Assembly (NCBI GenBank): GCA_016782355.1
Contig: JADHYP010000006.1
Coordinates: 1 to 18,366, forward strand
Length of the DNA: 18,366 nucleotides
Direction of reading: 5' to 3'
From: Candidatus Syntropharchaeum sp.
Lineage (GTDB): Archaea > Halobacteriota > Syntropharchaeia > Alkanophagales > Methanospirareceae
The notes below the pieces were generated by a model, which saw only the letters and a program-made list of their open reading frames with translations, made no database searches and had not been told where the DNA came from. Below are positions 1 through 16,230 of this stretch, piece after piece (position 1 is the stretch's first letter; every line of letters begins with the position of its first letter). The position numbers and the translations under genes were made by a program.

Positions 1-1856
1 CCTACGAATATGCGAGAATACCGTTAAAGCAAGGACTAAATCTGATTTCAGGTCCAAACGGCGCGGGCAAGTCATCCATCCTATTAGCGATTTCAGTTGC
101 TCTGGGTCAGATATATACAGAAAGGAGCAAGAGGCTGAGAGATTTGATAAGGCGAGGTAACGAAATCGCACGGATTACTTTGGTATTTGATAACGAAGAA
201 ACGAACGGAAGCAGACCAATCGGTTTTTCAGACGCCGATACTTTCATGCTGTCGAGATATCTGAAGAACGATGGGAACTACTGGTGGGAAGCGGATTATA
301 AGCAGATAAGCTACGAAGAAGTCATAAGGCTGTTCAAAGGATTTGGGCTCGACCCGAATAATATGCTGATAATCATGCATCAAAACACAATGGAGCAATT
401 CTGCTTGACGTCACCGCAGGAGAAGCTAAAGCTTTTAGAAGCGGCTGTTGGCTTCGGTTCATATCGAGAAAAGGTGATAGACGCGAGGAACCGGCTCGAA
501 TCTATCATAAGCGAAGATGAATCTATTTCCGAATTGCTTGGAAGAGCGGAAGAAAGCCTTGGTTACTGGAAAGAGATGCATGAGAAGTATTTACTGAGAG
601 AGGAGTTGGATGAGCGAAGGGGATGGTTGAAACGCGAGGCGATATGGGCACGGTTCATAAAACAGGAAGCGGCGTTGAATATACTCGAAGAACGGCTTAA
701 CGCAAAGGAACATGCAGTTGAATCAAATCAGGCTGAGACTGCGGACACGAATGAAAAGATAAAAGAATGGCGTGGAAAACTTGACTCGTGGAAAATCAAC
801 TCTAAGGAATCCTTTTACGAACTTTTGCACCTTGAGAAGGAAGAGACGAAATTTGCGGTTTTAGCTGAGCTTCTACGAGAGAACGAACGGATTTTCGGCG
901 AACCTGTAAAGAATGAAGAGGTGGAGAGAATAAGGGAAAGGCTAAAAGAAGCGGATAAAAGGGGAGGAGAATTAGAAGAGGAAATAAGCAAGGTGCAAAG
1001 CAAACTCGGAGCTATTGAAAGGAGCCTGGAATCGAACATGGACGCTTATATAAGCTACCGTGTAAAGGAAGAAGTCCTGAGGTTTAAGAGCGACATGCTC
1101 GAAACAGATATAAGAACGATTAATGCGGAGATGGAGAAAGCGAATGAAAAGTTGGCGGATTTACTACCCATGAAGAAAAAAGCGGGTGCGCGAATAGAGA
1201 CAGAAAGAAAACAGAGCGAAATAGAGAATGAAATAGGGTTGGTAAATGCGAGAGTCGAAGCGTTGGGCGAGATACCGGAAGAGACGGAGGAAATTTACTC
1301 GAATTATTCAAAGTTGTTTGATGAATTGAAAGAGAAATCGGAGATAGTAGTGGCGAATAAACGAGAAGGGCTGAAGGAACTCGATGCGAGGAAGAAAGTC
1401 TGGCGGAAGACGATAACCGACCTTTTGGATTCTATCAACGGTTCTTTTCAGCAAATTCTGTCCGGCATAGGCGCTACCGGGTTAGCACGGCTGGTTAATG
1501 TCGAAGAGGGCGATATAGAAAATGCGGGTTTAGAACTTTTTGTGGGGTTCAGAGGCTCTCCGCCCGTTCTGTTTGATTACTATACGCAAAGTGGGGGAGA
1601 GAAGACGGCTTCGATAATGGCTTTCCTTCTGTCAATCCAGCAACTGCTTCGGTCTCCTTTCAGAGCAGTGGATGAGTTCGATATACACATGGACCCGAGG
1701 AATCGAGAAGAGGTATATAAGATGATGCTTTCGTCGATGAAAAATTCTGAATGTTTGCTGATTACTCCAGGTCAGATAACCGTGACCGACCCAAGCGTTC
1801 ATATAATAGTGGTGCAGAAGGCATATGGGAAATCTGGTGTGCGGGCGGTTAAATGA
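1..1856 (+). CDS. SMC5/6-like SMC-family ATPase, compact (5' end outside window)
   Basis: The reading frame is open from nt 3, so the start lies upstream; 617 residues are visible and probably about 15-20 are missing. Walker A (GPNGAGKSS) is at nt 51-77. A coiled-coil region rich in E/K/R follows, with a helix break around FGEPVKN (near nt 890-920) that could be the apex. The C-terminal half-head carries QSGGEKTAS (about 1587-1613), PFRAVDEFD (Walker B) and MDPRNRE (D-loop), then LLITP near the end. QSGGE, PFR.VDE, MDPRNE and LLITP are SMC5-like; DEFD is SMC6-like. Canonical SMC and Rad50 have about 900-1,200 residues with a hinge or CxxC zinc hook; neither is seen here. By family it should be an ATP-driven DNA-binding clamp or loop-extruding protein, presumably dimeric. 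The SMC-family call is firm; the SMC5/6 affinity is inferred from motifs. It converges on the - strand operon. Confidence 0.85.
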   Translation, partial: YEYARIPLKQGLNLISGPNGAGKSSILLAISVALGQIYTERSKRLRDLIRRGNEIARITLVFDNEETNGSRPIGFSDADTFMLSRYLKNDGNYWWEADYKQISYEEVIRLFKGFGLDPNNMLIIMHQNTMEQFCLTSPQEKLKLLEAAVGFGSYREKVIDARNRLESIISEDESISELLGRAEESLGYWKEMHEKYLLREELDERRGWLKREAIWARFIKQEAALNILEERLNAKEHAVESNQAETADTNEKIKEWRGKLDSWKINSKESFYELLHLEKEETKFAVLAELLRENERIFGEPVKNEEVERIRERLKEADKRGGELEEEISKVQSKLGAIERSLESNMDAYISYRVKEEVLRFKSDMLETDIRTINAEMEKANEKLADLLPMKKKAGARIETERKQSEIENEIGLVNARVEALGEIPEETEEIYSNYSKLFDELKEKSEIVVANKREGLKELDARKKVWRKTITDLLDSINGSFQQILSGIGATGLARLVNVEEGDIENAGLELFVGFRGSPPVLFDYYTQSGGEKTASIMAFLLSIQQLLRSPFRAVDEFDIHMDPRNREEVYKMMLSSMKNSECLLITPGQITVTDPSVHIIVVQKAYGKSGVRAVK

Positions 1857-1990: not shown

Positions 1991-2680
1991 TTAAGTAGCC
2001 CATTTAATTATTAACACATATACCGCTGCTATAACCATCAGAGACGCACCTATTCCAATAACAAACATCCTCATAGGTATCATCGCAGTTAGCTCTGACA
2101 TTGTCCCCCGTAGGAGCATTGAACCTGCTAAAACGGCTGTTGCACTCAGCAGAGCTAAAAGGATGAGTGTGAAACTGAAAGCGTTGCTCTTAAGATGACA
2201 TTCATTGATTTCATCTTCTGACCCGCCTCTTCCAAGTAGGTCTGATTTGTTTTCCTTGAGCTGGTTTAAATAAAAGAAGGAAAAATGCCCGATGGTGATC
2301 GCTCCGGCAATTATCAAAATTTCTCGCAATCTTAGAGATGTCTCTATCGGTATCCCTATTAATTCAAGCCAGCTATAGGAAGAAAAGGACAGGATTGCAG
2401 GTACGCAAAGCAGGATTAAGAAAGTGGTGAATCGCTTGCTCCCTCTGATTGATGCATATAATCCCCAAAGAATGAGGATTAAGAGCATCAAAGGGGTTAT
2501 TTGAATTGCAACGGTAAGATGGATTAGTGTGGCTAAAGCTTGGAATATTTGTATAACCAAAGTCTGGAAATAATGATAAAAAGACGATTTAGAGAAAGCG
2601 AATACGGCGATCCCACTCAGGAAAGTGCCGAGGATTACTTGAACGATACTCGTTACAGGCGATTTTAACTTTAGCTTCAT
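1991..2680 (-). CDS. Polytopic membrane protein of unknown function, last gene of MoxR/DUF58 operon
   Basis: 229 residues with about six hydrophobic segments: near residues 10-30, 38-57, 62-77, 83-100, a weaker one at 120-137, then 168-190 and 200-226. A charged hydrophilic loop (about 140-165, with GRGGSEDE) separates the two halves. I do not recognise a family. Its start overlaps the DUF58 stop by 4 nt (ATGA), so translation is probably coupled. Small membrane proteins often close MoxR-DUF58 clusters, which suggests a role in the same membrane-associated assembly; that is inference. Confidence 0.75.
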   Translation of the reverse strand: MKLKLKSPVTSIVQVILGTFLSGIAVFAFSKSSFYHYFQTLVIQIFQALATLIHLTVAIQITPLMLLILILWGLYASIRGSKRFTTFLILLCVPAILSFSSYSWLELIGIPIETSLRLREILIIAGAITIGHFSFFYLNQLKENKSDLLGRGGSEDEINECHLKSNAFSFTLILLALLSATAVLAGSMLLRGTMSELTAMIPMRMFVIGIGASLMVIAAVYVLIIKWAT

Positions 2681-4002
2681 CGCCTTTCACCCTGCCTGAT
2701 TAGAACAGTCGTAAATTTATCTTTTTGTGGGTCCCATTCCACTACCGTAGCCCCCATTCTACGTAACTTACTTGTTATCGGAGAATGTTTTATCTTTTGA
2801 AGCGAAATCGCGTATTCTTTATATTCCGAAGGCGGTGTGGGATTTAGATAGTGCGAAAGGACATTAACGACCATTATTGGGACTCTTTTTCGCCTTCTGC
2901 CACCACTCATAGCGCTGAGTTTTTTTATACCCTCAATTAGCGATTCTGAAGATTCCGATCGTATCTCTGTTATTACAATTGAAAGCGGGTTGTATCGCAG
3001 AATATGTGCTCTACACTTCCTGACGGCGTTATCTAACCCCTCGTTTCTGTCGTAACTCTTAAGGTCCACCAATTCTTTAGACAGCTTGAGGTATTGCTTT
3101 TTTCCCGTATCAGGATAGAAAAGTTTCTCTCCATCGTTGTATAAGTACATCCCCACTCGATACCCTCGGTCAGTGAAATACCGAGTGACCGCATCCGCGG
3201 ATTTCAAAGCGTACTCAAATACGTTATCGATTGATGTTCCGATCTCGAGCGAAGAAGCAGCATCCAAAAATATCCAAATCGTCTTCTTCCCTTCATATTC
3301 ATATTCATTTACAAGTGGCGTTGCAAAACCTCCCCTTCCTACCCTTCTAGCGGTTGCTTTCCAGTTGATTTTACTTAATGGGTCTCCATATTGGTAATTA
3401 CGTATCTCTTTGAAGTCGGTGGTGCTAACCCCAATTTTTGACATGTCTGCTCTCGGAAAGAGAGAGGATGCTATGTCCTTTTTACCCCGGATTTTTCTCA
3501 GTTCCATAGTCCTTGGTCTTACGGTCAATCCCACTTCTGTATCGCAAGTGCCGGAAATTTCTTTTTTCAATCCTAAAACATGTCTTGATCCCCATTTAAC
3601 GTTTGATAGTGTGTAAGAACCTCGCTTCACACATTTGACTTTGTATGAAAGCATCAGCTCTTTTTCACCTAAACCCTTCCACAACATTCTGAAGTTATTT
3701 CCATCCACGAGTTCGAAAGTGGATGGCAGTTCATCAATGAGCGTTACAATTCCAATTCCATCCATTATTCTAACCTTTATATTTACCTCCAATTCATCAT
3801 CAGTCCAGACCGATTTATTTAAATCTCCTCGCTCGATTTCTACTTCTCTCGGCTGATCTATCAGCAGTCCAAACAACAATAAGAATAGAGGAATAAGCCC
3901 CATGTATATGAAAACCATATTTCCAAATAACAAACCTATCAGGAAGAGAGATGCAAACCATCCGATAAAGCTCGTTGAAAGCGGTGTCAGGTATTTTCTC
4001 AT
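2677..4002 (-). CDS. DUF58 domain protein (MoxR partner)
   Basis: 441 residues. Two closely spaced N-terminal membrane segments (about 10-27 and 29-48) are followed by a beta-rich region (50-165). The DUF58 signature, TDFKEIRNYQYGDP..KINWKATAR, spans residues about 195-219. It leads into a vWA-like fold beginning IWIFLDAASS (242-251), where the MIDAS motif DxSxS is degenerate (D-A-A-S-S). DUF58 proteins are almost always encoded next to MoxR ATPases and are thought to be their membrane-bound clients or adaptors. Here the start lies 3 nt after the MoxR stop and the 3' end overlaps the next gene by 4 nt. The family call is secure; the precise role is not known. Confidence 0.92.
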   Translation of the reverse strand: MRKYLTPLSTSFIGWFASLFLIGLLFGNMVFIYMGLIPLFLLLFGLLIDQPREVEIERGDLNKSVWTDDELEVNIKVRIMDGIGIVTLIDELPSTFELVDGNNFRMLWKGLGEKELMLSYKVKCVKRGSYTLSNVKWGSRHVLGLKKEISGTCDTEVGLTVRPRTMELRKIRGKKDIASSLFPRADMSKIGVSTTDFKEIRNYQYGDPLSKINWKATARRVGRGGFATPLVNEYEYEGKKTIWIFLDAASSLEIGTSIDNVFEYALKSADAVTRYFTDRGYRVGMYLYNDGEKLFYPDTGKKQYLKLSKELVDLKSYDRNEGLDNAVRKCRAHILRYNPLSIVITEIRSESSESLIEGIKKLSAMSGGRRRKRVPIMVVNVLSHYLNPTPPSEYKEYAISLQKIKHSPITSKLRRMGATVVEWDPQKDKFTTVLIRQGERR

Positions 4003-4005
4003 AAC

Positions 4006-4977
4006 TCACCTTGGTTTGAAATCTTTCGGCACAGGGATAGCTTGAATTACTTCTTCTATCACGTCTCCAGCTTTTAATCCTTCCAATGTGTACTCCATGT
4101 CCAAGATTATTCGGTGAGAGAGCGCATCTTTTATAAATAACTTCACATCATCGGGTGTGACGAAATCCCTGCCATTTATAAGTGCTATCGCTCTCGAAAC
4201 CTTGAGCAAAGCTATACCGCCTCTGGGGCTGGATCCAATCTCCACTTGGGGCTTCTCCCTCGTTACCCTCACTATCTTGCTTATGTAATCTAAGATGCAA
4301 TCATCCACGTATATCTGAGTTTCTACCAGTTTCTGAAGCTCTCTGAATCCTTCACGAGTTATTGCAGGTTTAAGTTCTGCAGTGGGGTCATCTTGCTTCC
4401 AACTTATCCTGCGGCTCAGGATTTTGTTCTCTTCCCCTATTGACGCTGGATAACCAGTGGAAAGCTTAAGTAAGAACCTGTCCAACTGGGCTTCAGGCAG
4501 GGGATAGGTGCCTTCCTGTTCTATGGGATTCTGAGTGGCTATTACGATAAAAGGATTGCCCAAACTATGAGTTTCACCTTCAATAGTGACCTGTTTCTCT
4601 TCCATCGCTTCGAGCAATGCGGATTGAGTTTTTGGAGGTGCCCTATTTATTTCATCTGCGAGAATTATGTCGGCGAAAATCGGACCCTTCTCAAGTTCGA
4701 ATAAATCTTTTTCTCGCCATACTTTCGCCCCTACAATATCAGCAGGTAAAAGGTCTGGTGTGAACTGAATCCTGCTGTATTCACAGCCGATTGCTCGTGC
4801 GAATGCTTTTGCTAAAAGCGTCTTCCCCAATCCCGGGTAATCCTCAAAAAGAACATGTCCATTGGCAGCACCAGCAGCCAGCAATTTCTTCAGCAGAAGT
4901 CGGTCTCCAACGTAAATATTACCGACGGCTTCGATAATTTCTTCACACACATCTTTCGCTTTTTCTATTTCGTGCAT
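4006..4977 (-). CDS. MoxR-family AAA+ ATPase
   Basis: 323 residues, normal length for MoxR. Visible motifs: Walker A DYPGLGKT (46-53), Walker B ILADE (105-109) followed by INRAPPKTQSALLEAM, sensor 1 at ATQNP (147-151, N150), EAQLDRF with a candidate arginine finger (R167), and sensor 2 SSPRGG (249-254, R252). MoxR ATPases are chaperone-like remodellers that assemble or activate vWA-containing partners, often insert metal cofactors, and act in envelope or stress processes. The DUF58 gene starts 3 nt downstream and a membrane-protein gene ends 25 nt upstream, so this is the energy source of the operon-encoded assembly. The specific substrate cannot be read from sequence. Confidence 0.95.
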   Translation of the reverse strand: MHEIEKAKDVCEEIIEAVGNIYVGDRLLLKKLLAAGAANGHVLFEDYPGLGKTLLAKAFARAIGCEYSRIQFTPDLLPADIVGAKVWREKDLFELEKGPIFADIILADEINRAPPKTQSALLEAMEEKQVTIEGETHSLGNPFIVIATQNPIEQEGTYPLPEAQLDRFLLKLSTGYPASIGEENKILSRRISWKQDDPTAELKPAITREGFRELQKLVETQIYVDDCILDYISKIVRVTREKPQVEIGSSPRGGIALLKVSRAIALINGRDFVTPDDVKLFIKDALSHRIILDMEYTLEGLKAGDVIEEVIQAIPVPKDFKPR

Positions 4978-5002
4978 TTTACTCTACAACCTATTATTCT
5001 GA

Positions 5003-5962
5003 TTATGATTTGGGTTTAATAATTTCCATTAGTTCTGCCAGTAGCATCTCACGATTTTTCCTGTTTCTTTGGCTCACTCTATTCTTTACCCACTCGAAAG
5101 ATGGAGAAGGCACAGGTTCGTCTTGATAGTTAATCAGAGGACTCAACTGCTGGGATATTGATTGCTGAGAATAACTACCATTTTCCTGTAACACACCCAC
5201 TAAATAAACAACAAGTTCTTCCTTTATGCCATCCTCAACAAATAGCCACTGCACCCTCTCAGCATATTCAAGGTCTTCATCAATTTTATTTTCAATCTTT
5301 TGCGTATGTTTCTCCCAATCGGAATAGGTCAGTGGTGCCGAGAGGTTTCTGTTAATGCTCCCTCGGACACTGCTAAAACTTCCCCAAACCATCATAACCA
5401 CAATTATCCAGTCTAAAAGTTGGAGGTGTTGCCAATTAATTAGAATTTGTGGACGGAAGAAACCAAAATAGATGACGATAAAGCATGCTATCAGCATGAA
5501 AGACAACTGGGAGTTCACGAGCCATTTGAATATGCCTGAAACGATTAGAGATTTGGACTTTTCACCGAACACTGCTAAAGTTACAAGGGCCGCAAGGGCA
5601 AATCCTGCAAAGATGGCAAGACCCAGTGTGTTTATAAATAGCGCTAATTTTGATGGAACCTCGTGTATGGATATTAGATACTGAAATCCTTTCCAGAGTG
5701 CATAGCCCGTCATCATAATTCCAGTAGAGATAAATATCGGCTGTGCTTTTTCCTTCTGCTCTGCGTGGCTAAGTGCGGTTCCGGCAGAATGGATAGACAG
5801 CCCGGAGAAAAATATAATTATCGGCAACACCCCTGCGGAAGTCAGGGGGTAGTAATTCTGTAGAGACGTTACGAAATTCAAAATTAACAATATACCGATA
5901 CAGAGCGCTGGATATGGAGATACTTCTTTAGCTACCTCTCTAATGAGTTCTTTACGACTCAT
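5003..5962 (-). CDS. Polytopic membrane protein with cytoplasmic acidic tail, MoxR-operon associated
   Basis: 319 residues. About six membrane segments lie in the first 200 residues (near 16-32, 42-58, 75-95, 103-131, 150-170, 182-200). A soluble, charged tail of about 115 residues follows, with a serine/glutamine-rich stretch (NGSYSQQSISQQLSP) and a basic end (RVSQRNRKNRE). I do not recognise a named family. The start overlaps the transglutaminase stop by 4 nt (ATGA), and MoxR starts 25 nt after its stop, so all three are co-translated. The tail could be the docking site for MoxR or DUF58; that is inference only. Confidence 0.75.
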   Translation of the reverse strand: MSRKELIREVAKEVSPYPALCIGILLILNFVTSLQNYYPLTSAGVLPIIIFFSGLSIHSAGTALSHAEQKEKAQPIFISTGIMMTGYALWKGFQYLISIHEVPSKLALFINTLGLAIFAGFALAALVTLAVFGEKSKSLIVSGIFKWLVNSQLSFMLIACFIVIYFGFFRPQILINWQHLQLLDWIIVVMMVWGSFSSVRGSINRNLSAPLTYSDWEKHTQKIENKIDEDLEYAERVQWLFVEDGIKEELVVYLVGVLQENGSYSQQSISQQLSPLINYQDEPVPSPSFEWVKNRVSQRNRKNREMLLAELMEIIKPKS

Positions 5963-8577
5963 GCTCTCCCCTCCAATTCATTTCGTGCAATTACCATTCT
6001 CTCGTAGTCTTTCCTTCCAATCTCGTGCATGCTATAGCAAGCTATTTCAAAGCATCCTATAAATTCGTCCACTGTCCCTTCAAATTCAAGAAATTTTGTG
6101 ACCAGCATTTCATACACTTCTCTTGGCGTGGTTTCCTCCTGCACAGCGAAATTACTTTTTTTCAATAACTCGAGGAACGATTTATATAGCTTTGTGATTT
6201 CTTCACGATAATTAACGATCCTGATGCGGGTGGTTCCACTCAACTTTTCAAATCCATCCGAGAAATTTGCATTTATGCTGTATTCACCTTTTTCATTGAC
6301 CGTGTGTATAAAGTGACATTGCCTATTCTCATCAGGGTCTGACACATAAGCAAGTGTTCTATCTATGTAAACTTCCATTTTTCCTTTCGATGATGAGGTT
6401 CCTTCATCAGGTATGGCACATGATATTTGAAGTTCCTCTCCAACACCCCATACGTTGGGGAAATTCTCTTTAATTTGTGGGAAAACGATACGTATTTTAT
6501 CTTCTTCTGCTTGTTCCACTTTCACAACGCCCTTCGTAGATTTTTCAGCCTCCGCTTCACCTTTATCTGGTTTTCTCCATTTATATTTATAGATTACGAT
6601 GGAGAGCACTGATAGTAAACTCAGGGTCAGGAGGATTAAACCGAACCACAGAAAGCCTCCGCTCGGATTTATATTTATGGGGTTGCTAACTGAGGATGGC
6701 AAATAAAAGCCGGACCCTCCAAAATGCAGGTTCACGTGTTTTTTAGCATTTTTGATGTCTTCCGGAATTGAGATGTTAAAAGATGTTTTTCCTTCTTCAT
6801 TGGTTTGGTTCGTGATTTCAGACGTTATTCCCGGAATGAATAGTGTTATTAGCTTCCCTTCAAGAGGGTTCCTAAGGTCATCTCTAAGGACTGCTCCTAT
6901 AGTAATCGTATCCCCCGGTTTTACGGTATCTGGAACAGAAGCATTCAGTTCCGTATGGGCTTTCACCCCCACCTCTTGCGATTTCGTGGTCTCAAATTCA
7001 GGCAGAACATATTTAAGTTTTAAGGGTCCCAGTTCTTGTGTTTGGTTGACACGATAAGTATAGCGGAATGCTCCGTTTTCATCGGTAGTAATATTAACCA
7101 CTTGTTCTCCGACTTGGATATTTAATGGCTCGTTGGTCAGCGGGCTGTCATCAAGTTGCGCTTTTCCGCAGAGGTCAACGTCCTCTCCCCTTATGAAGGT
7201 GTTATTGGTTTCGATGTCCAGTAAAACAAGCGTAATCACGATGTTTGCTTCTTTGCTTGATTCCAAAAAGTATGCGGTTCCTTTGAACACCGCTTTGACT
7301 GAATAATTTCCTTTCTTCGGAAAAGCATGCTCGGTAGAAAAGACACCGATTTTGTTCGTAGTTGTACGTGCTACCTCTTTACCTTCTACGAAAACCCTTA
7401 TTTCCTCACCAGATACGGGATTACCCGTGTCTTCAACCAATTTTCCCCGGATTTTTACAGTTTCCCCCGGCTTAGCTATTTCAGGCACAAAAAGGTAAAT
7501 CTCAGTGTGGGTGATAACTTTAACTGGTGGGTCACTCCATGACTCTCCATACTTATTATTCCCAATAGCGTGTGCTATCACGTGATAATCCCCCACTTCC
7601 ACCTCTGGCGATACCGAGCATTTTATCTCGAAATATCCTTCATCTGTTTCATCTTGTCCGCACAGCATTCCACCTTTTTCCTTGTTCTCGTTCAGGAATA
7701 CATCTATTGGCATCCCGTCAACTTTCTCACCGCTCTCTGTAAGAACCGTGCCTTCAACTATGAGATCATGACCCTTTGCAATCACCACATCACTCATGGA
7801 TGTTATTTCCGTACCAGTTGGGATTAGCGCCTTTTCTTCTCCTTCTCCACCTACTTCTCCTCCTGTTGCGTCAATGGTTATCCACCCTACTTCAAGCCCT
7901 ACCTCAGCCCAGCAATGAGCTTGGTCTGCAAAAACTGTTTGTGTCCCGGAAGTGCTTTTAATCAAGTATCCGCTTACTACTCTTGACGGTATTCCTACCG
8001 CTCTGGCAAGGACGACAAAGGCGGAGTTAAAATTTGCGCACACGCCTCTCTTCTCCTCAAAAAGGAACCAGTCATTGGGTTCCCAACCTTCAGGAGCCCT
8101 TGTGTAATTTAAATTGTACTCATAATTGGTTTTGAGGCAACTTTCAATTGCTTTCGCTTTTCTGTAAGGGCTTTCGTAGTTCTCGGTAAGCTCTCGAGCT
8201 AATTGCTTGGTTCTATCAGTGATTTGAGTGGGTAACTGTAGATATTTCTCGGTATCAATCGCCTCTGAGCTTTCAAGCGTAGATTCTTTGAAATGATAAT
8301 GGGTAGTAGTGAAGGAATAGGGAGAAGAAAATGATTTTGATGAGTAAAAGATGTTCTGTTCTGGGTAGCAGTCCAACGAATCAAGCAAAGAGACTTTATC
8401 GGTGTAGAGTGAAATGGGTATGAAACCGGGCGGAAATTTAGCTATGGGTTTTATTTCGATTTCGTCTTTGAGCTTTGATTGATAATTTTTCACTTTGTGC
8501 CCGATGGTTTCACCTTTGTATATGTGGCGTGGTTCTTCGCCAAGCTCCCACATTTCTCCATCATACGTCACACCCAC
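5959..8577 (-). CDS. Transglutaminase-like protein with Ig-like repeats, single TM and DUF4129-like tail
   Basis: 872 residues from the GTG at 8577. The transglutaminase-like core has a complete candidate triad: Cys180 (RGVCANFNSAF, then GIPSRVVSGY), His221 (QAHCWAEV) and Asp236 (ITIDATGG). About four beta-sandwich or carboxypeptidase-regulatory-like domains (265-640) follow, then one membrane span (641-663), a further beta domain (690-790) and a C-terminal DUF4129-like helical region (790-872). The topology should be catalytic part outside, tail inside. The GTG is probably not the real start: the frame stays open to 8907 with family-like sequence (ATNTHYLKAVV directly before GVTYDGEMW, a CPTC pair, an acidic SDSD linker) but contains no ATG, GTG or TTG. 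No signal peptide is present in this frame. See the junction at 8568-8907. Confidence 0.9.
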   Translation of the reverse strand: MGVTYDGEMWELGEEPRHIYKGETIGHKVKNYQSKLKDEIEIKPIAKFPPGFIPISLYTDKVSLLDSLDCYPEQNIFYSSKSFSSPYSFTTTHYHFKESTLESSEAIDTEKYLQLPTQITDRTKQLARELTENYESPYRKAKAIESCLKTNYEYNLNYTRAPEGWEPNDWFLFEEKRGVCANFNSAFVVLARAVGIPSRVVSGYLIKSTSGTQTVFADQAHCWAEVGLEVGWITIDATGGEVGGEGEEKALIPTGTEITSMSDVVIAKGHDLIVEGTVLTESGEKVDGMPIDVFLNENKEKGGMLCGQDETDEGYFEIKCSVSPEVEVGDYHVIAHAIGNNKYGESWSDPPVKVITHTEIYLFVPEIAKPGETVKIRGKLVEDTGNPVSGEEIRVFVEGKEVARTTTNKIGVFSTEHAFPKKGNYSVKAVFKGTAYFLESSKEANIVITLVLLDIETNNTFIRGEDVDLCGKAQLDDSPLTNEPLNIQVGEQVVNITTDENGAFRYTYRVNQTQELGPLKLKYVLPEFETTKSQEVGVKAHTELNASVPDTVKPGDTITIGAVLRDDLRNPLEGKLITLFIPGITSEITNQTNEEGKTSFNISIPEDIKNAKKHVNLHFGGSGFYLPSSVSNPININPSGGFLWFGLILLTLSLLSVLSIVIYKYKWRKPDKGEAEAEKSTKGVVKVEQAEEDKIRIVFPQIKENFPNVWGVGEELQISCAIPDEGTSSSKGKMEVYIDRTLAYVSDPDENRQCHFIHTVNEKGEYSINANFSDGFEKLSGTTRIRIVNYREEITKLYKSFLELLKKSNFAVQEETTPREVYEMLVTKFLEFEGTVDEFIGCFEIACYSMHEIGRKDYERMVIARNELEGRA

Positions 8578-11198: not shown

Positions 11199-11933
11199 AT
11201 GAAGAAAATAATAACGCTTAAAGAACATATAATCAATTATGCAAAGAATAACAGTTATTTCAACATAAATGACTTGAGAAAGTATTTTACTGATAGAAGA
11301 ATTGACTACAAAAATGACACACTGAAAAAATATCTCTATCTTCTGAAAAGAGAAAACGCTATCTATGGCGCAGGCAGAGGCTGGTATTCCACAATAAAAC
11401 ATGATTTTGTATTGGATACAAAGCCCGTAGAAGAAATTAGAGCGTTAATAAAAGACAAGTTCCCACTCCTTGATTTCTCTTGCTGGAGCACGGAACAGAT
11501 AAAAGGTTTCTTTCACCACCTGCCAAGTCAATTTGTCACTTTCGTTTATACCGATAAAGATTTTCTACAAGCCGTAAAAGATTTTCTGGCGGATGAAGGC
11601 TACAATACATATCTAAATCCCCGCAAAAGTGAAACGGAAAAATATGTAGAACTAAAAAACCGAACTGTTATATTAAGACCTTTTATTTCTCCTCGTGAGC
11701 CTAAAAATCAGCGTTTTGCAAAAATAGAGAAGATACTTGTGGATTTGTTTATGGAGACGAAAAGGGTCAATCTCATGGATATGAGCGAATACCAGAAAAT
11801 TTTTTCCAATATAATCCATAATTACCGCATAAATATAGCGGTAATGCTCGACTATGCAGAAAGGAGAAAAATAAAAGAAAAGATGCAGGCTATGTGCATG
11901 AATACAAAATCCACCAATATGACATTTTTGTAA
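11199..11933 (+). CDS. AbiEi-like antitoxin / transcriptional regulator of type IV toxin-antitoxin pair
   Basis: 244 residues. An N-terminal winged-helix region (1-65) begins KKIITLKEHIINYAKNN, has NDLRKYF and ends with the wing IYGAGRGWYS. An alpha/beta region follows (FVTFVYTDKDFLQAV, TVILRPFISPRE). This matches the plan of AbiEi or DUF6577-type antitoxins, which bind their own promoter and neutralise the nucleotidyltransferase toxin without stable contact. A strong RBS (GGTGGTGG) precedes the ATG. The toxin gene starts 31 nt downstream. The exact subfamily is uncertain; the toxin-adjacent position supports the call. It and the toxin gene look more AT-rich than the operon to the left, suggesting transfer. 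Confidence 0.7.
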   Translation: MKKIITLKEHIINYAKNNSYFNINDLRKYFTDRRIDYKNDTLKKYLYLLKRENAIYGAGRGWYSTIKHDFVLDTKPVEEIRALIKDKFPLLDFSCWSTEQIKGFFHHLPSQFVTFVYTDKDFLQAVKDFLADEGYNTYLNPRKSETEKYVELKNRTVILRPFISPREPKNQRFAKIEKILVDLFMETKRVNLMDMSEYQKIFSNIIHNYRINIAVMLDYAERRKIKEKMQAMCMNTKSTNMTFL

Positions 11934-11964
11934 AATGTAGCAATAGTGGAATGAGGCGGGGGAA

Positions 11965-13050
11965 ATGATTGACAGAACATGTTTTGAAAGAGAATGGATA
12001 ACAAATAAACATAGAGAAACAAACGCAGACCCAATATTGATAGAAAAAGCAATATATGCCTTTGAATTGCTTGGGAATTTGGTTGAAAACGGCATCAATC
12101 TGATTTTTAAAGGTGGCACAGGTTTGATGCTGCTCATTCCTGAATTGAAAAGACTTTCCATTGACCTCGACATAATAACTGAGGATGAAGATATAACATT
12201 GTATGATACATTCGACAAAATAATACAGGAAGGATTATTTAAAAAATGGGAAGAAGATAAAAGACCAACGGAGCATAAGATTCCAAAGAGTCATTTTAAA
12301 TTCTACTACATATCTTCAATAGAAAATAGAGTGGCTTATGTCCTGCTTGATATTGTAAAAATGCCTTCTCCCTTTTCCGAAACAATTGAAAAGCCAATTA
12401 TTCTACCGTTGTTTGAAGTTGAAAAAGAAGTGAAAGTACCAATCCCTACTGTAAATAGCTTTACCGGAGACAAATTGGGTGCTTTTGCTCCTACGACTAT
12501 TGGGATTCTTTATGGTAAAGGAAAATCAATGGAAATATTAAAACAATTATTTGACCTTGGAATTCTATTTGAACACATAACTGACCTGAAGGAAATCAGT
12601 CAGTTGTATAAAAAAATTGCTGAAATTGAAGCTTCTTATCGTAATATTAGTTTGCCCCCAGATGAATTTTTGGGTGATTCAATAAGGACTTCTTTTCTCA
12701 TCTCTCAATTAGACTTTCGTGGAAGTATCGAGAACGAACATACAAGAGAACTAAGAGACGGGATTAGAAGGATTAGAAGTCACATAATTGGAGGCAGATA
12801 CTCTTTTTCAAATGCTAAAGAGGATGCTTCAAAAGTTGCCTGTCTTGCTTTTTTAATTAAGGATGGTCGTTTGGATATGGATATAGGAGGGCTAAAGCAA
12901 AATAGAGGAGATGTAGAGAGAATAAAGGATATTTCCCTTCCTAACGATTTCAGTATTCTAAATAAGCTAAAGGCAATTTCTCCGGAGAGTTTTTATTTAT
13001 GGGCGATAGCTACCGGAGTAATACAGGAAGGGGAAAATGAGCAAAGCTAG
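11965..13050 (+). CDS. AbiEii/AbiGii-family nucleotidyltransferase toxin
   Basis: 361 residues. NTase motif I is FKGGTGLMLLI (48-58), with catalytic DLD at 67-69 in RLSIDLD. A third carboxylate is probably D129 (YVLLDIVK). The AbiEii-specific GDKLGAFAP (168-176, K170) is also present. The C-terminal half is helical. Members of this family transfer nucleotides to RNA (tRNA in known cases) and act in abortive infection or as type IV toxins. All key residues are present, so it is probably active. A G-rich RBS lies just before the ATG at 11965. It overlaps the following MNT gene by 14 nt. Confidence 0.85.
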   Translation: MIDRTCFEREWITNKHRETNADPILIEKAIYAFELLGNLVENGINLIFKGGTGLMLLIPELKRLSIDLDIITEDEDITLYDTFDKIIQEGLFKKWEEDKRPTEHKIPKSHFKFYYISSIENRVAYVLLDIVKMPSPFSETIEKPIILPLFEVEKEVKVPIPTVNSFTGDKLGAFAPTTIGILYGKGKSMEILKQLFDLGILFEHITDLKEISQLYKKIAEIEASYRNISLPPDEFLGDSIRTSFLISQLDFRGSIENEHTRELRDGIRRIRSHIIGGRYSFSNAKEDASKVACLAFLIKDGRLDMDIGGLKQNRGDVERIKDISLPNDFSILNKLKAISPESFYLWAIATGVIQEGENEQS

Positions 13051-14558: not shown

Positions 14559-15368
14559 ATGAAACAAATGAAACCAGACGAGCTATTCCGGCTGATAAAC
14601 TTTTGCGAAACCATACAAAAGGAAGGGACCGACCCATTTGATTTGGACGTCAAAAAGTTTCTGGAAACGCTGAAGAATCATCTAAAAAAGTGGAAGCGGT
14701 TAGACGACCTGCTTTTAGACGCAGAAGCGATGTCCGAGCTAACGAAGATAATCGAATTGCAGGGTAAATGGATAAGAGACCGCTCCTCCTCGTTTTACAT
14801 AGACCCCGTTTTAATGGAACTCAAACTAAAAATGCTGGAGCCAGCTCAGTTAGCAGACGCATTCTTTAAATCCTGGCATCCCATTATATCAATGGATAGA
14901 ATCACTGCAAAGAGGTTGAAAGAGGGACTGGATTACTGGAACGCGCTAATACCCTTCAGTGAGCGGAAGGAAGAATTTCCGCTACCGTCAACGTCTGAAA
15001 CGTTTCCGTTCGACCTCGAGGATTTAATTGATTTGAACATCTTATCCCGGACTGAGTTCGAGGATTCAATAAAAGCAGTTTTGAACGACCTTGAGCAACG
15101 GGGCAGAATCGAATATCACGATTTTATTTATGACGATGAATACGAGAGCAGTGTTGAAAAGGCGTATCTGACGAGTTATTTAGTAAGCGAAGGAAAAGCT
15201 GAACTCGATATAAACCCATTAGAGGAAGAAGTCTTTATTTCTCCGTGCAATGCAAAAGCAAACACTGGGGATGTAAGGTCTATCCCGATTTCGTTAAGCT
15301 ACGAGGATTGGTTAAGATGGAAGAGGAAACAGAAGAAGAATCAAGGACAAAAGCAGAACGGAAGGTGA
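14559..15368 (+). CDS. Kleisin (ScpA-like) subunit of an SMC complex
   Basis: 269 residues, near the ScpA length. The N-terminal region follows the ScpA plan: LFRLINFCETIQKEGTDPFD then LDVKKFLETL (9-38; compare 'DPWDI..IT..YL' in ScpA), then DLLLDAEAMSELTKIIELQG (50-69; compare the 'DLELA.EFL..AA.LL' helix that contacts the SMC neck). A Pro/Ser/Asp/Glu-rich middle part (136-160) should be the linker that binds KITE proteins. The C-terminal winged-helix-like part (161-228) should bind the SMC cap. It overlaps the KITE gene by 52 nt, which supports a complex. Kleisins bridge the two SMC heads. Sequence similarity is pattern-level, so Nse4-like rather than ScpA-like affinity is possible. Confidence 0.7.
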   Translation: MKQMKPDELFRLINFCETIQKEGTDPFDLDVKKFLETLKNHLKKWKRLDDLLLDAEAMSELTKIIELQGKWIRDRSSSFYIDPVLMELKLKMLEPAQLADAFFKSWHPIISMDRITAKRLKEGLDYWNALIPFSERKEEFPLPSTSETFPFDLEDLIDLNILSRTEFEDSIKAVLNDLEQRGRIEYHDFIYDDEYESSVEKAYLTSYLVSEGKAELDINPLEEEVFISPCNAKANTGDVRSIPISLSYEDWLRWKRKQKKNQGQKQNGR

Positions 15369-15859
15369 AAAGGGCAGCCCAGTTAATGTTCTTCAGGAGG
15401 CATAGAATCCCCGGAGTTAAAGGCTGGGAGCTTAAAAAGGCATTGGGAGAGAATTATATGGAAGTAATCGCGGTTTTAAATTCCACTCTCGATAAACTTG
15501 GCATGGAAGTAAAACGGATAAACGAAGAAGGAGGTGGAGAAGAAAAAGCAGAGCGCGACAGATTTATGATCGTGCTTAAGAACCACCTGGTTGAGAAAGC
15601 TTCGGGAGAAAGAATAGACCAGGTCGCCATGCTGTCTGCTACTTTAGCCTATATCATCTCGAAGCAAGGCAAAGCACCGAGAAAAGCGGTAGAGTCGTTT
15701 TTAAGCGATAAATTCCCCAAACGTAGAGTTTTCTTCGCTCTGGACAGGTATATCAAGCAGGGATATCTGGGTGAGGATGACAAGGTGTTGTATATCGGAT
15801 GGAGGACACGAGCGGAGGTGGATAGGAAATCGCTATTGGATTTGATTCTGGCTTCGTGA
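15317..15859 (+). CDS. KITE protein, ScpB / Nse3(MAGE)-like, partner of the kleisin
   Basis: 180 residues from the ATG at 15317, chosen because a GAGG RBS lies 10 nt before it; the frame is open further upstream inside the kleisin gene. Two winged-helix units are visible. WH1 covers about 18-90, with GWELKKALGENYMEVIAVLN and FMIVLKNHLVE. WH2 covers about 98-163, with DQVAMLSATLAYIISKQGKA (compare the ScpB helix 'LETLAIIAYKQP') and FALDRYIKQGYL. The end, YIGWRTRAEVDRKSLLDLIL, resembles the MAGE/Nse3 terminus (W.PRA..E.....VLE). KITE dimers bind the kleisin linker and DNA in SMC complexes. The N-terminus is acidic (MEEETEEE). The KITE class is well supported; MAGE versus ScpB affinity is inference. 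Confidence 0.7.
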   Translation: MEEETEEESRTKAERKVKRAAQLMFFRRHRIPGVKGWELKKALGENYMEVIAVLNSTLDKLGMEVKRINEEGGGEEKAERDRFMIVLKNHLVEKASGERIDQVAMLSATLAYIISKQGKAPRKAVESFLSDKFPKRRVFFALDRYIKQGYLGEDDKVLYIGWRTRAEVDRKSLLDLILAS

Positions 15860-16085: not shown

Positions 16086-16169
16086 ATTTGTTGGGATAGC
16101 ACTTTAAAAATGTTTCACAATAGGCAATAGATGGAATTTTCCTGGTTTGTGAAAAGGTAGTTCGTTTTG

Positions 16170-16230
16170 ATTGAAAAAGCTTCTGGTGAAAGAATAGACG
16201 ATGTCGCAATGCTGTCTGCTTGTAATATGA
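16170..16230 (+). pseudogene. Relic of a second, diverged KITE gene
   Basis: Nt 16171-16220 match 15591-15640 of the KITE gene at 44 of 50 bases. In the matching frame it reads IEKASGERIDDVAMLSAC against VEKASGERIDQVAMLSAT. Among the aligned codons, GAG/GAA, TCG/TCT, GGA/GGT and GCC/GCA differ silently and only CAG/GAT changes the residue within the core. The frame is closed by TAG at 16158-16160 and by TGA soon after AACNMKSF-like sequence. The flanks do not align well, so only a fragment survives. Confidence 0.7.

Follow-up and report, generated by a model that had tools for sequence, protein, structure and literature searches.

Does an archaeon encode a relative of Smc5/6, the genome-guarding eukaryotic complex of the structural maintenance of chromosomes (SMC) type that contains KITE (kleisin-interacting tandem winged-helix element) subunits? 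The question is raised by a stretch of 18,366 nucleotides from Candidatus Syntropharchaeum sp. (hereafter the window, i.e. the whole of the DNA analysed), which is contig JADHYP010000006.1 (C84 in our numbering) of a draft genome of 1.0 Mb in 105 contigs, 61% complete. An earlier note, made from the sequence of the window, had proposed that an overlapping kleisin-KITE gene pair and an SMC-type ATPase at the left edge could form an archaeal SMC5/6-like complex. In our opinion, the window carries, with a probability of roughly three in four, the three core subunits of what would assemble into an archaeal SMC-kleisin-KITE complex, related to the Smc5/6 core and containing a short, hinge-less SMC. 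The features concerned are as follows.

3 to 1856, plus strand: compact hinge-less SMC ATPase, 617 codons present, 5' end cut by the contig edge (Pfam SMC_N, 1.7e-28)
14559 to 15368, plus strand: Nse4-like kleisin, 269 amino acids (Nse4_C, 1.1e-4; AlphaFold2 model best matches yeast Nse4)
15048 to 15245, plus strand: C-terminal winged helix of the kleisin, residues about 164–229, the expected SMC-head cap
15317 to 15859, plus strand: Nse3/MAGE-like KITE, 180 amino acids, tandem winged helix, overlapping the kleisin gene by 52 nucleotides

Both open reading frames of the pair behave as real genes, with 93 homologues of the kleisin and 296 of the KITE found at E≤0.001, and the predicted folds agree with the assignment of these overlapping same-strand genes to a kleisin and a KITE. 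Close homologues of both carry the name Methanophagales archaeon (ANME-1), for which reason the source is regarded here as an ANME-1 archaeon. The start codon of the KITE gene is most probably ATG 15317 and not GTG 15245, since this is where its homologues start. The SMC gene lies 12.7 kb from the pair on the same contig, so all three candidates do fall within 18 kb, as had been noted. Its missing 5' end is a matter of the contig break and not of the gene, since the open frames of relatives extend further upstream; complete compact SMC relatives are mostly 617–645 amino acids long, measured from MSYEYARI.

The kleisin is of the Nse4 type, as in eukaryotic Smc5/6, by the sequence of its C-terminal domain. 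The window protein matches Pfam Nse4_C with 22.8 bits, under the 26-bit cut-off, and the same model was matched by 27 of 31 kleisin family members at E≤1 (best 5.7e-6) and is found as precomputed annotation on 32 of the 93 homologues. When the kleisin profile was run against PDB sequences, Nse4 and EID3 were the sole matches at E≤10 (2.2e-4 to 6.8e-4), the likeness at the sequence level covering the C-terminal domain only. The AlphaFold2 model contains helices at residues 7–22, 31–42 and 48–76, with predicted local distance difference test (pLDDT) values of 74–86 over residues 11–70, and a winged helix at the C-terminus; its best match among solved structures is yeast Nse4. The earlier label of an ScpA-like protein had to be abandoned: PF02616 (ScpA) has no match in the window kleisin, is not among the 16 Pfam families matched by its family members, and has no match anywhere in the source draft genome (61% complete). 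An NCBIfam search of the kleisin and the KITE gave no informative match.

The second protein of the pair is modelled as a tandem winged helix, i.e. with the secondary structure of a KITE. Its best solved folds in Foldseek are those of MAGE, Nse1 and Nse3; JetB, MukE and ScpB also match, JetB and MukE less strongly than MAGE/Nse3, and the VIA structure comparison gave Nse3/MAGE and ScpB matches. Of the earlier ScpB/MAGE-like label, the MAGE part stands by fold, and identity as ScpB was rejected, with no match in family searches. Pfam MAGE was matched by 3 of 30 KITE family members at E≤1 (best 3.6e-4). The terminal motif W-x-x-R-x-x-E, which had been read from the window, occurs at none of 48 loci; the actual form is W-x-x-R-x-E, present at 46 of the 48 and reading WRTRAE in the window. 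Nse4 and Nse3/MAGE being the best solved matches of the pair, and the kleisin match being visible in sequence as well, the idea of an SMC5/6-like complex is supported, and the lack of kleisin or KITE folds that would have spoken against it was not observed. The KITE profile gave one full-length match each in 34 of 58 genomes of the class. Two genomes, G136 and G400, have two KITE matches each, which might be gene pairs or split genes. The window itself contains a remnant at 0.3 kb downstream of the intact gene, which points to duplication or rearrangement of the locus:

16164 to 16223, plus strand: second KITE copy, remnant (KITE profile E 1.5e-4, positions 93–112 of 183, in a 26-codon frame)

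The protein at the left edge is indeed an SMC-type ATPase. SMC_N is present in 22 of 22 compact SMCs, Walker A is N-terminal and the signature and Walker B motifs are C-terminal, and the Walker A, SGGE and DEFD residues are invariant across the 22 aligned sequences, bar one position. A profile built from these sequences and run against solved SMC structures in the PDB ranks Smc5 and Smc6 first (yeast Smc5 5.1e-41, human Smc6 1.1e-39, yeast Smc6 5.3e-39), followed by a prokaryotic Smc (1.7e-35), human Smc5 (7.4e-35) and other prokaryotic Smc proteins (2.9e-33 and weaker), and SMC1–4 score 5.6e-29 and weaker. Nine Smc5/Smc6 entries lead this ranking and the tenth, human Smc5, stands one rank below a prokaryotic Smc, bit scores not being strictly comparable across deposited constructs of different length. 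The C-terminal half of the SMC of locus L119 prefers Smc5 (5e-21 vs 8e-13 for the best prokaryotic Smc; human Smc6 7e-16).

In a tree of joined N- and C-terminal heads (315 columns, LG+G4+F, with 12 canonical archaeal SMCs, yeast Smc2 and 4 Rad50), the compact SMC clade (ultrafast bootstrap 99) is sister to SMC5+SMC6 (90), with a joint support of 99; with the C-terminal head only, compact SMC groups with SMC5 (78) and then with SMC6 (92). The approximately unbiased (AU) test prefers the grouping of compact SMC with SMC5/6 (p 0.90). The identity of the three genes and their family relationships are observed, and for the ATPase the SMC5/6 placement is favoured, not proven. This placement agrees with the archaeal SMC ATPases termed 'SMC5/6-related', 21 of which were used and branch with SMC5/6 in the available part of PMC9389158; the compact ATPase may be among these 21. 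The term kleisin occurs 0 times in that paper. An orphan compact SMC, about 45% identical, was found in genome G054 (L125, 2897–4819, minus strand), with no kleisin or KITE beside it within the 7 kb listed; this genome also has canonical Smc-ScpA, and the GC-rich contig of the orphan gene might be a contaminant.

The P-loop-to-signature distance of compact SMCs is 500–532 residues (median 513; 44 copies, some of them the same gene twice), compared with 1004–1058 (median 1045, n=9) in canonical archaeal SMCs. SMC_hinge has no match in the window SMC in Pfam and does not appear in the family list of the 22 compact SMCs (25 of 37 families), and was found in both canonical controls at about 1e-32; the CxxC zinc hook occurs in none of the 44 copies. 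Thus, the hinge-dimerised, long-armed SMC of other SMC-kleisin-KITE complexes was not detected here, and the arms are estimated at 120–145 residues, or about 20 nm. Such a hook is a feature of ASRP/coalescin and Rad50; the ASRP model scores 39.4 bits vs a cut-off of 300. Hinge-less SMC variants consisting of a head and a coiled coil, with neither hinge nor CxxC hook, are described from marine Actinobacteria (PMC12153180); unlike the proteins considered here, they are actinobacterial, and the available text never uses the word kleisin. No report of an archaeal hinge-less SMC was found in searches of open-licence PMC literature, preprints excluded.

The linkage of the three genes is conserved. 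A scan of GTDB contigs with the kleisin gave 48 loci, at all of which the KITE gene stands directly behind the kleisin gene. The compact SMC gene directly precedes the pair at all 16 loci L104–L119 (fragmentary in L104, L105 and L116), which belong to Bathyarchaeota, Nitrososphaeria/Thaumarchaeota, Methylarchaceae and unnamed archaea and are called here Thermoproteota-type loci, and at 4 of the other 32 (L072, as a fragment, L073, L074 and L101). At a second set of 30 loci, taken from among the 156 genomes in which the KITE was matched (its L136 is L107 of the first set), the kleisin adjoins in 30 cases and the SMC in 29; the thirtieth reaches the contig end. The trio lies on one strand, and its joints mostly overlap by 1–62 nucleotides or touch, with start codons picked by script; larger gaps are 416 nucleotides (L072) and 38 nucleotides (L115). 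The SMC gene is mostly apart from the pair in the window's family, where the trio is contiguous in two genomes, G026 and G052; the contiguous family cases G026, G052 and G023 are apparently the same loci as L073, L074 and L072.

Among 51 draft genomes of this family, kleisin and compact SMC are both present in 31 and both missing in 14, and the 6 mixed cases include 4 genomes with the kleisin only and 2 with the SMC only (Fisher p 2e-7, relatedness ignored). In this count, SMC fragments (G016, G023, G028 and G032) and a kleisin fragment (G028) were taken as present. Fragments aside, each of the 33 family genomes in which the compact SMC was matched has a single gene for it. ScpA was found in 0 of the 51 family genomes vs 6 of 7 genomes from other families of the class (58 draft genomes), and SMC_hinge in 0 of 51 vs 5 of 7. 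A strict partnership of the pair with a canonical SMC, named earlier as an outcome that would refute the proposal, is contradicted by the contiguous trio, by this co-occurrence and by the lack of ScpA and hinge-type SMC in the same 51 genomes. It would seem that Smc-ScpA was lost in this family and the compact complex retained, and since neither ScpA nor a hinge-type SMC was found there, the trio may be the family's only SMC-kleisin complex.

Among 392 genomes sampled in the phylum to which the window belongs, 35 have the KITE, all 35 of them in the window's family; among 398 sampled in that of the Bathyarchaeota locus L107, which was taken as Thermoproteota, 156 have it (a single match in 154). 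In the latter, KITE and hinge-type SMC occur together in 74 genomes, KITE only in 82, hinge-type SMC only in 94 and neither in 148; mutual exclusion of the two was considered and rejected (Fisher p 0.10). The tree nests the window's family among the Thermoproteota compact SMCs with a support of 43–55 only, and transfer of the trio from a Thermoproteota donor is plausible.

A pointer to the role of the trio comes from the neighbouring genes. Lhr is a helicase that acts in DNA repair. A family scan covered 86 of the 90 proteins encoded next to ten Thermoproteota-type operons and, among the 25 of 55 families listed, the commonest are those of Lhr-type helicases (DEAD, DEAD_assoc, WH_Lhr; 6 proteins), the others occurring 1–3 times each and looking metabolic or otherwise housekeeping. 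Lhr was found within 5.6 kb at 10 of the 16 Thermoproteota-type loci (L105, L109, L110, L111, L114–L119) and within 1.5 kb at 11 of the 30 loci of the second set (L136–L165); by a rough binomial expectation chance is negligible, the loci being related and the figures only a guide. The Lhr gene faces the operon near the KITE gene, at a distance of 3 bp in L101, and was identified individually in L101 and L117. An Lhr-type gene lies on both flanks of the operon in L117. This neighbourhood points to genome maintenance.

Together with the clamping of yeast Smc5/6 subunits around DNA (available part of PMC9191643), the Lhr neighbourhood favours an ATP-driven genome-maintenance clamp. We infer the following assembly, stoichiometry and action of the trio. 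Two identical compact SMC heads would join on ATP, the Nse4-like kleisin would bridge the head of one SMC and the neck of its partner, and a dimer of the single Nse3-like KITE would sit on the middle of the kleisin, helping to hold DNA against the heads. With arms of about 20 nm and no hinge, the result would be an ATP-driven DNA clamp and not a long-armed loop-extruding ring. The clamp would probably serve genome maintenance and, in many Thermoproteota, work alongside the Lhr encoded next to it; in the window's family, with Smc-ScpA seemingly lost, the trio would probably be the only SMC-kleisin complex left. A bolder proposal, which we find attractive rather than probable, is that the trio is a surviving prokaryotic Smc5/6 core that predates the SMC5/SMC6 and Nse1/Nse3 duplications. 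Such a core would consist of a homodimeric hinge-less SMC, an Nse4-type kleisin and an Nse3/MAGE-type KITE and would work as a clamp with Lhr; in ANME-1, it would stand in for the lost condensin as the sole SMC-kleisin complex.

A number of observations weigh against the kinship with Smc5/6 and the role proposed. As a single query, the window SMC ties prokaryotic Smc with Smc5 (1e-21 and 1.1e-21), the N-terminal half of the L107 SMC ties Smc6 (9.7e-16) with Smc2 (1.6e-15), and yeast Smc6 scores low (5e-6) with the C-terminal half of the L119 SMC. The best NCBIfam models for the window SMC are those of canonical SMC, far under their cut-offs, and the AU test fails to reject the grouping of compact with canonical SMCs (0.14) and two other topologies (0.057 and 0.056) at the 5% level. 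The window KITE itself has no Pfam match, and the profile searches suggested earlier, which led from the kleisin to Nse4 and EID3, gave for the KITE no MAGE among PDB sequences and chance-level matches only. In Foldseek, MAGE is followed by unrelated winged-helix proteins (SelB, cullins) before JetB appears; both AlphaFold2 models are modest, with pLDDT 76 for the KITE and 66 for the kleisin, and Foldseek template-modelling scores are low. Neither an Smc5-Smc6 heterodimer nor two different KITEs (Nse1+Nse3) were found, only a single SMC gene and a single KITE gene, although a KITE too distant for the profile would escape. Lhr is near only 2 of the 32 other loci (L101 and, as a fragment, L074) and did not turn up in the scan of ten window proteins. 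Finally, the complex looks dispensable in this family, as kleisin and compact SMC both went undetected in 14 of its 51 genomes. Among these 14 are G007, assembled in 5 contigs and 92% complete, and G036, which has a KITE fragment. In G007, a Pfam SMC_N search gave one long SMC-like protein of Rad50 length (935 amino acids) and otherwise short frames. With ScpA, a hinge-type SMC and all parts of the trio undetected in G007 at least, some ANME-1 may be without any SMC-kleisin complex.

Compared with known systems, the trio resembles the eukaryotic Smc5/6 core in the C-terminus of the kleisin (Nse4), the fold of the KITE (Nse3/MAGE) and the SMC heads (Smc5/Smc6). Where Smc5/6 has two SMC genes and two KITEs, the trio has a single one of each; its compact SMC is without a detectable hinge and has about half the head-motif distance, and its genes form one operon in Thermoproteota-type loci. 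Smc-ScpA(B) condensin also consists of an SMC, a kleisin and a tandem winged-helix protein, but the archaeal trio has neither a match to the ScpA model nor a hinge. According to the available part of Jeon et al. (PMC7055376), archaeal Smc complexes generally lack a KITE; unlike the Smc-ScpA described there, the compact trio has one. Wadjet JetABCD and MukBEF share with it an operon of kleisin, KITE and SMC, the KITE fold matching JetB and MukE more weakly; Wadjet differs in JetD, which is not seen in the window, and in that kleisin and KITE have no PADLOC match. No report of archaeal Nse4-/Nse3-like partners, or of Lhr together with SMC, was seen in searches of open-licence PMC literature, preprints excluded, an absence of little weight, and the available parts of PMC10586767 and PMC9764264 name no such partners.

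A compact archaeal set with Nse4-/Nse3-like partners would make the prokaryotic origin of Smc5/6 directly testable and may show what the ancestor looked like. The trio would suggest that a hinge is dispensable in an SMC-kleisin-KITE machine, and it bears on the question of how much SMC function needs a closed long-armed ring. It also qualifies the view of archaeal SMC complexes as generally KITE-less, as put forward in the available part of PMC7055376. ANME-1, in which Smc-ScpA was undetected, would offer a natural test of what the trio does alone.

Among other explanations, the one that survives best, possible but rather unlikely in our opinion, regards the trio as a general chromosome organiser that succeeded Smc-ScpA in ANME-1 and has no special tie to repair or Smc5/6. 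It would fit the lack of detectable ScpA and hinge-type SMC in all 51 family genomes, the 82 of 156 KITE-bearing Thermoproteota genomes without a hinge-type SMC, and the failure to detect the KITE in mobile-element collections. However, the other 74 of the 156 have a hinge-type SMC as well, so that no simple replacement took place there, and 14 of 51 family genomes have neither kleisin nor compact SMC; moreover, short hinge-less arms would seem ill-suited to long-range loop extrusion, and the neighbouring Lhr points to repair. It is improbable that the trio forms an SMC-kleisin-KITE branch of its own, related to Nse4 and Nse3 only in the way that all kleisins and KITEs are, with a likeness to Smc5/6 that would be convergent or merely ancestral: for all three subunits, taken separately, the best match lies in one and the same eukaryotic complex, and ScpA is missing from the 16 Pfam families matched by kleisin members.

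A Smc5/6-related complex has also to be weighed against a Wadjet-like one acting in plasmid or phage defence, an alternative already raised in the earlier note in view of neighbouring defence genes. The window also contains:

11199 to 13050, plus strand: AbiEi/AbiEii type IV toxin-antitoxin-like pair, between the SMC and kleisin genes (PADLOC 1.3e-48 and 1e-104)
2677 to 8577, minus strand: cluster of a DUF58 protein and a large transglutaminase-core protein with Ig-like repeats (family matches)

In PADLOC, the window SMC is matched by Mad3 (4e-24), LmuB (6e-21) and, weakly, JetC (2e-6), and in the window's family the kleisin-KITE pair stands at times beside defence-type genes. The PADLOC neighbour lists of relatives comprise the first 25 of 48 and of 62 families; in the latter, which covers 88 of 103 proteins at 12 loci (11 ANME-type records and L101), MkoA (2), MkoC (2), DpdJ (3) and other models match neighbours of the pair, which again counts against the proposed maintenance role. 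PADLOC helicase models also match the Lhr genes. A search for the KITE in 50,697 phage records and 72,556 plasmid records gave no match, and none of 53 KITE pattern matches in viral contigs was confirmed; a mobile-element origin of the KITE was rejected on these grounds, the kleisin and the SMC not having been searched there. Despite the AbiE pair, the defence models and the antiviral action of human SMC5/6 (available part of PMC10586767), a Wadjet-like complex is very improbable, as kleisin and KITE have no PADLOC match at E≤1, no JetD was found among the seven window proteins scanned (the region upstream of the SMC lies beyond the contig), the families listed for the genes flanking ten Thermoproteota-type loci (25 of 55) are for the most part metabolic or Lhr, and a KITE carried by 156 of 398 genomes, mostly as a single match and in conserved gene order, was not found in plasmid, phage or viral collections.

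As for the minus-strand cluster, it includes a gene at 4006–4977 whose product we take to resemble a MoxR ATPase.
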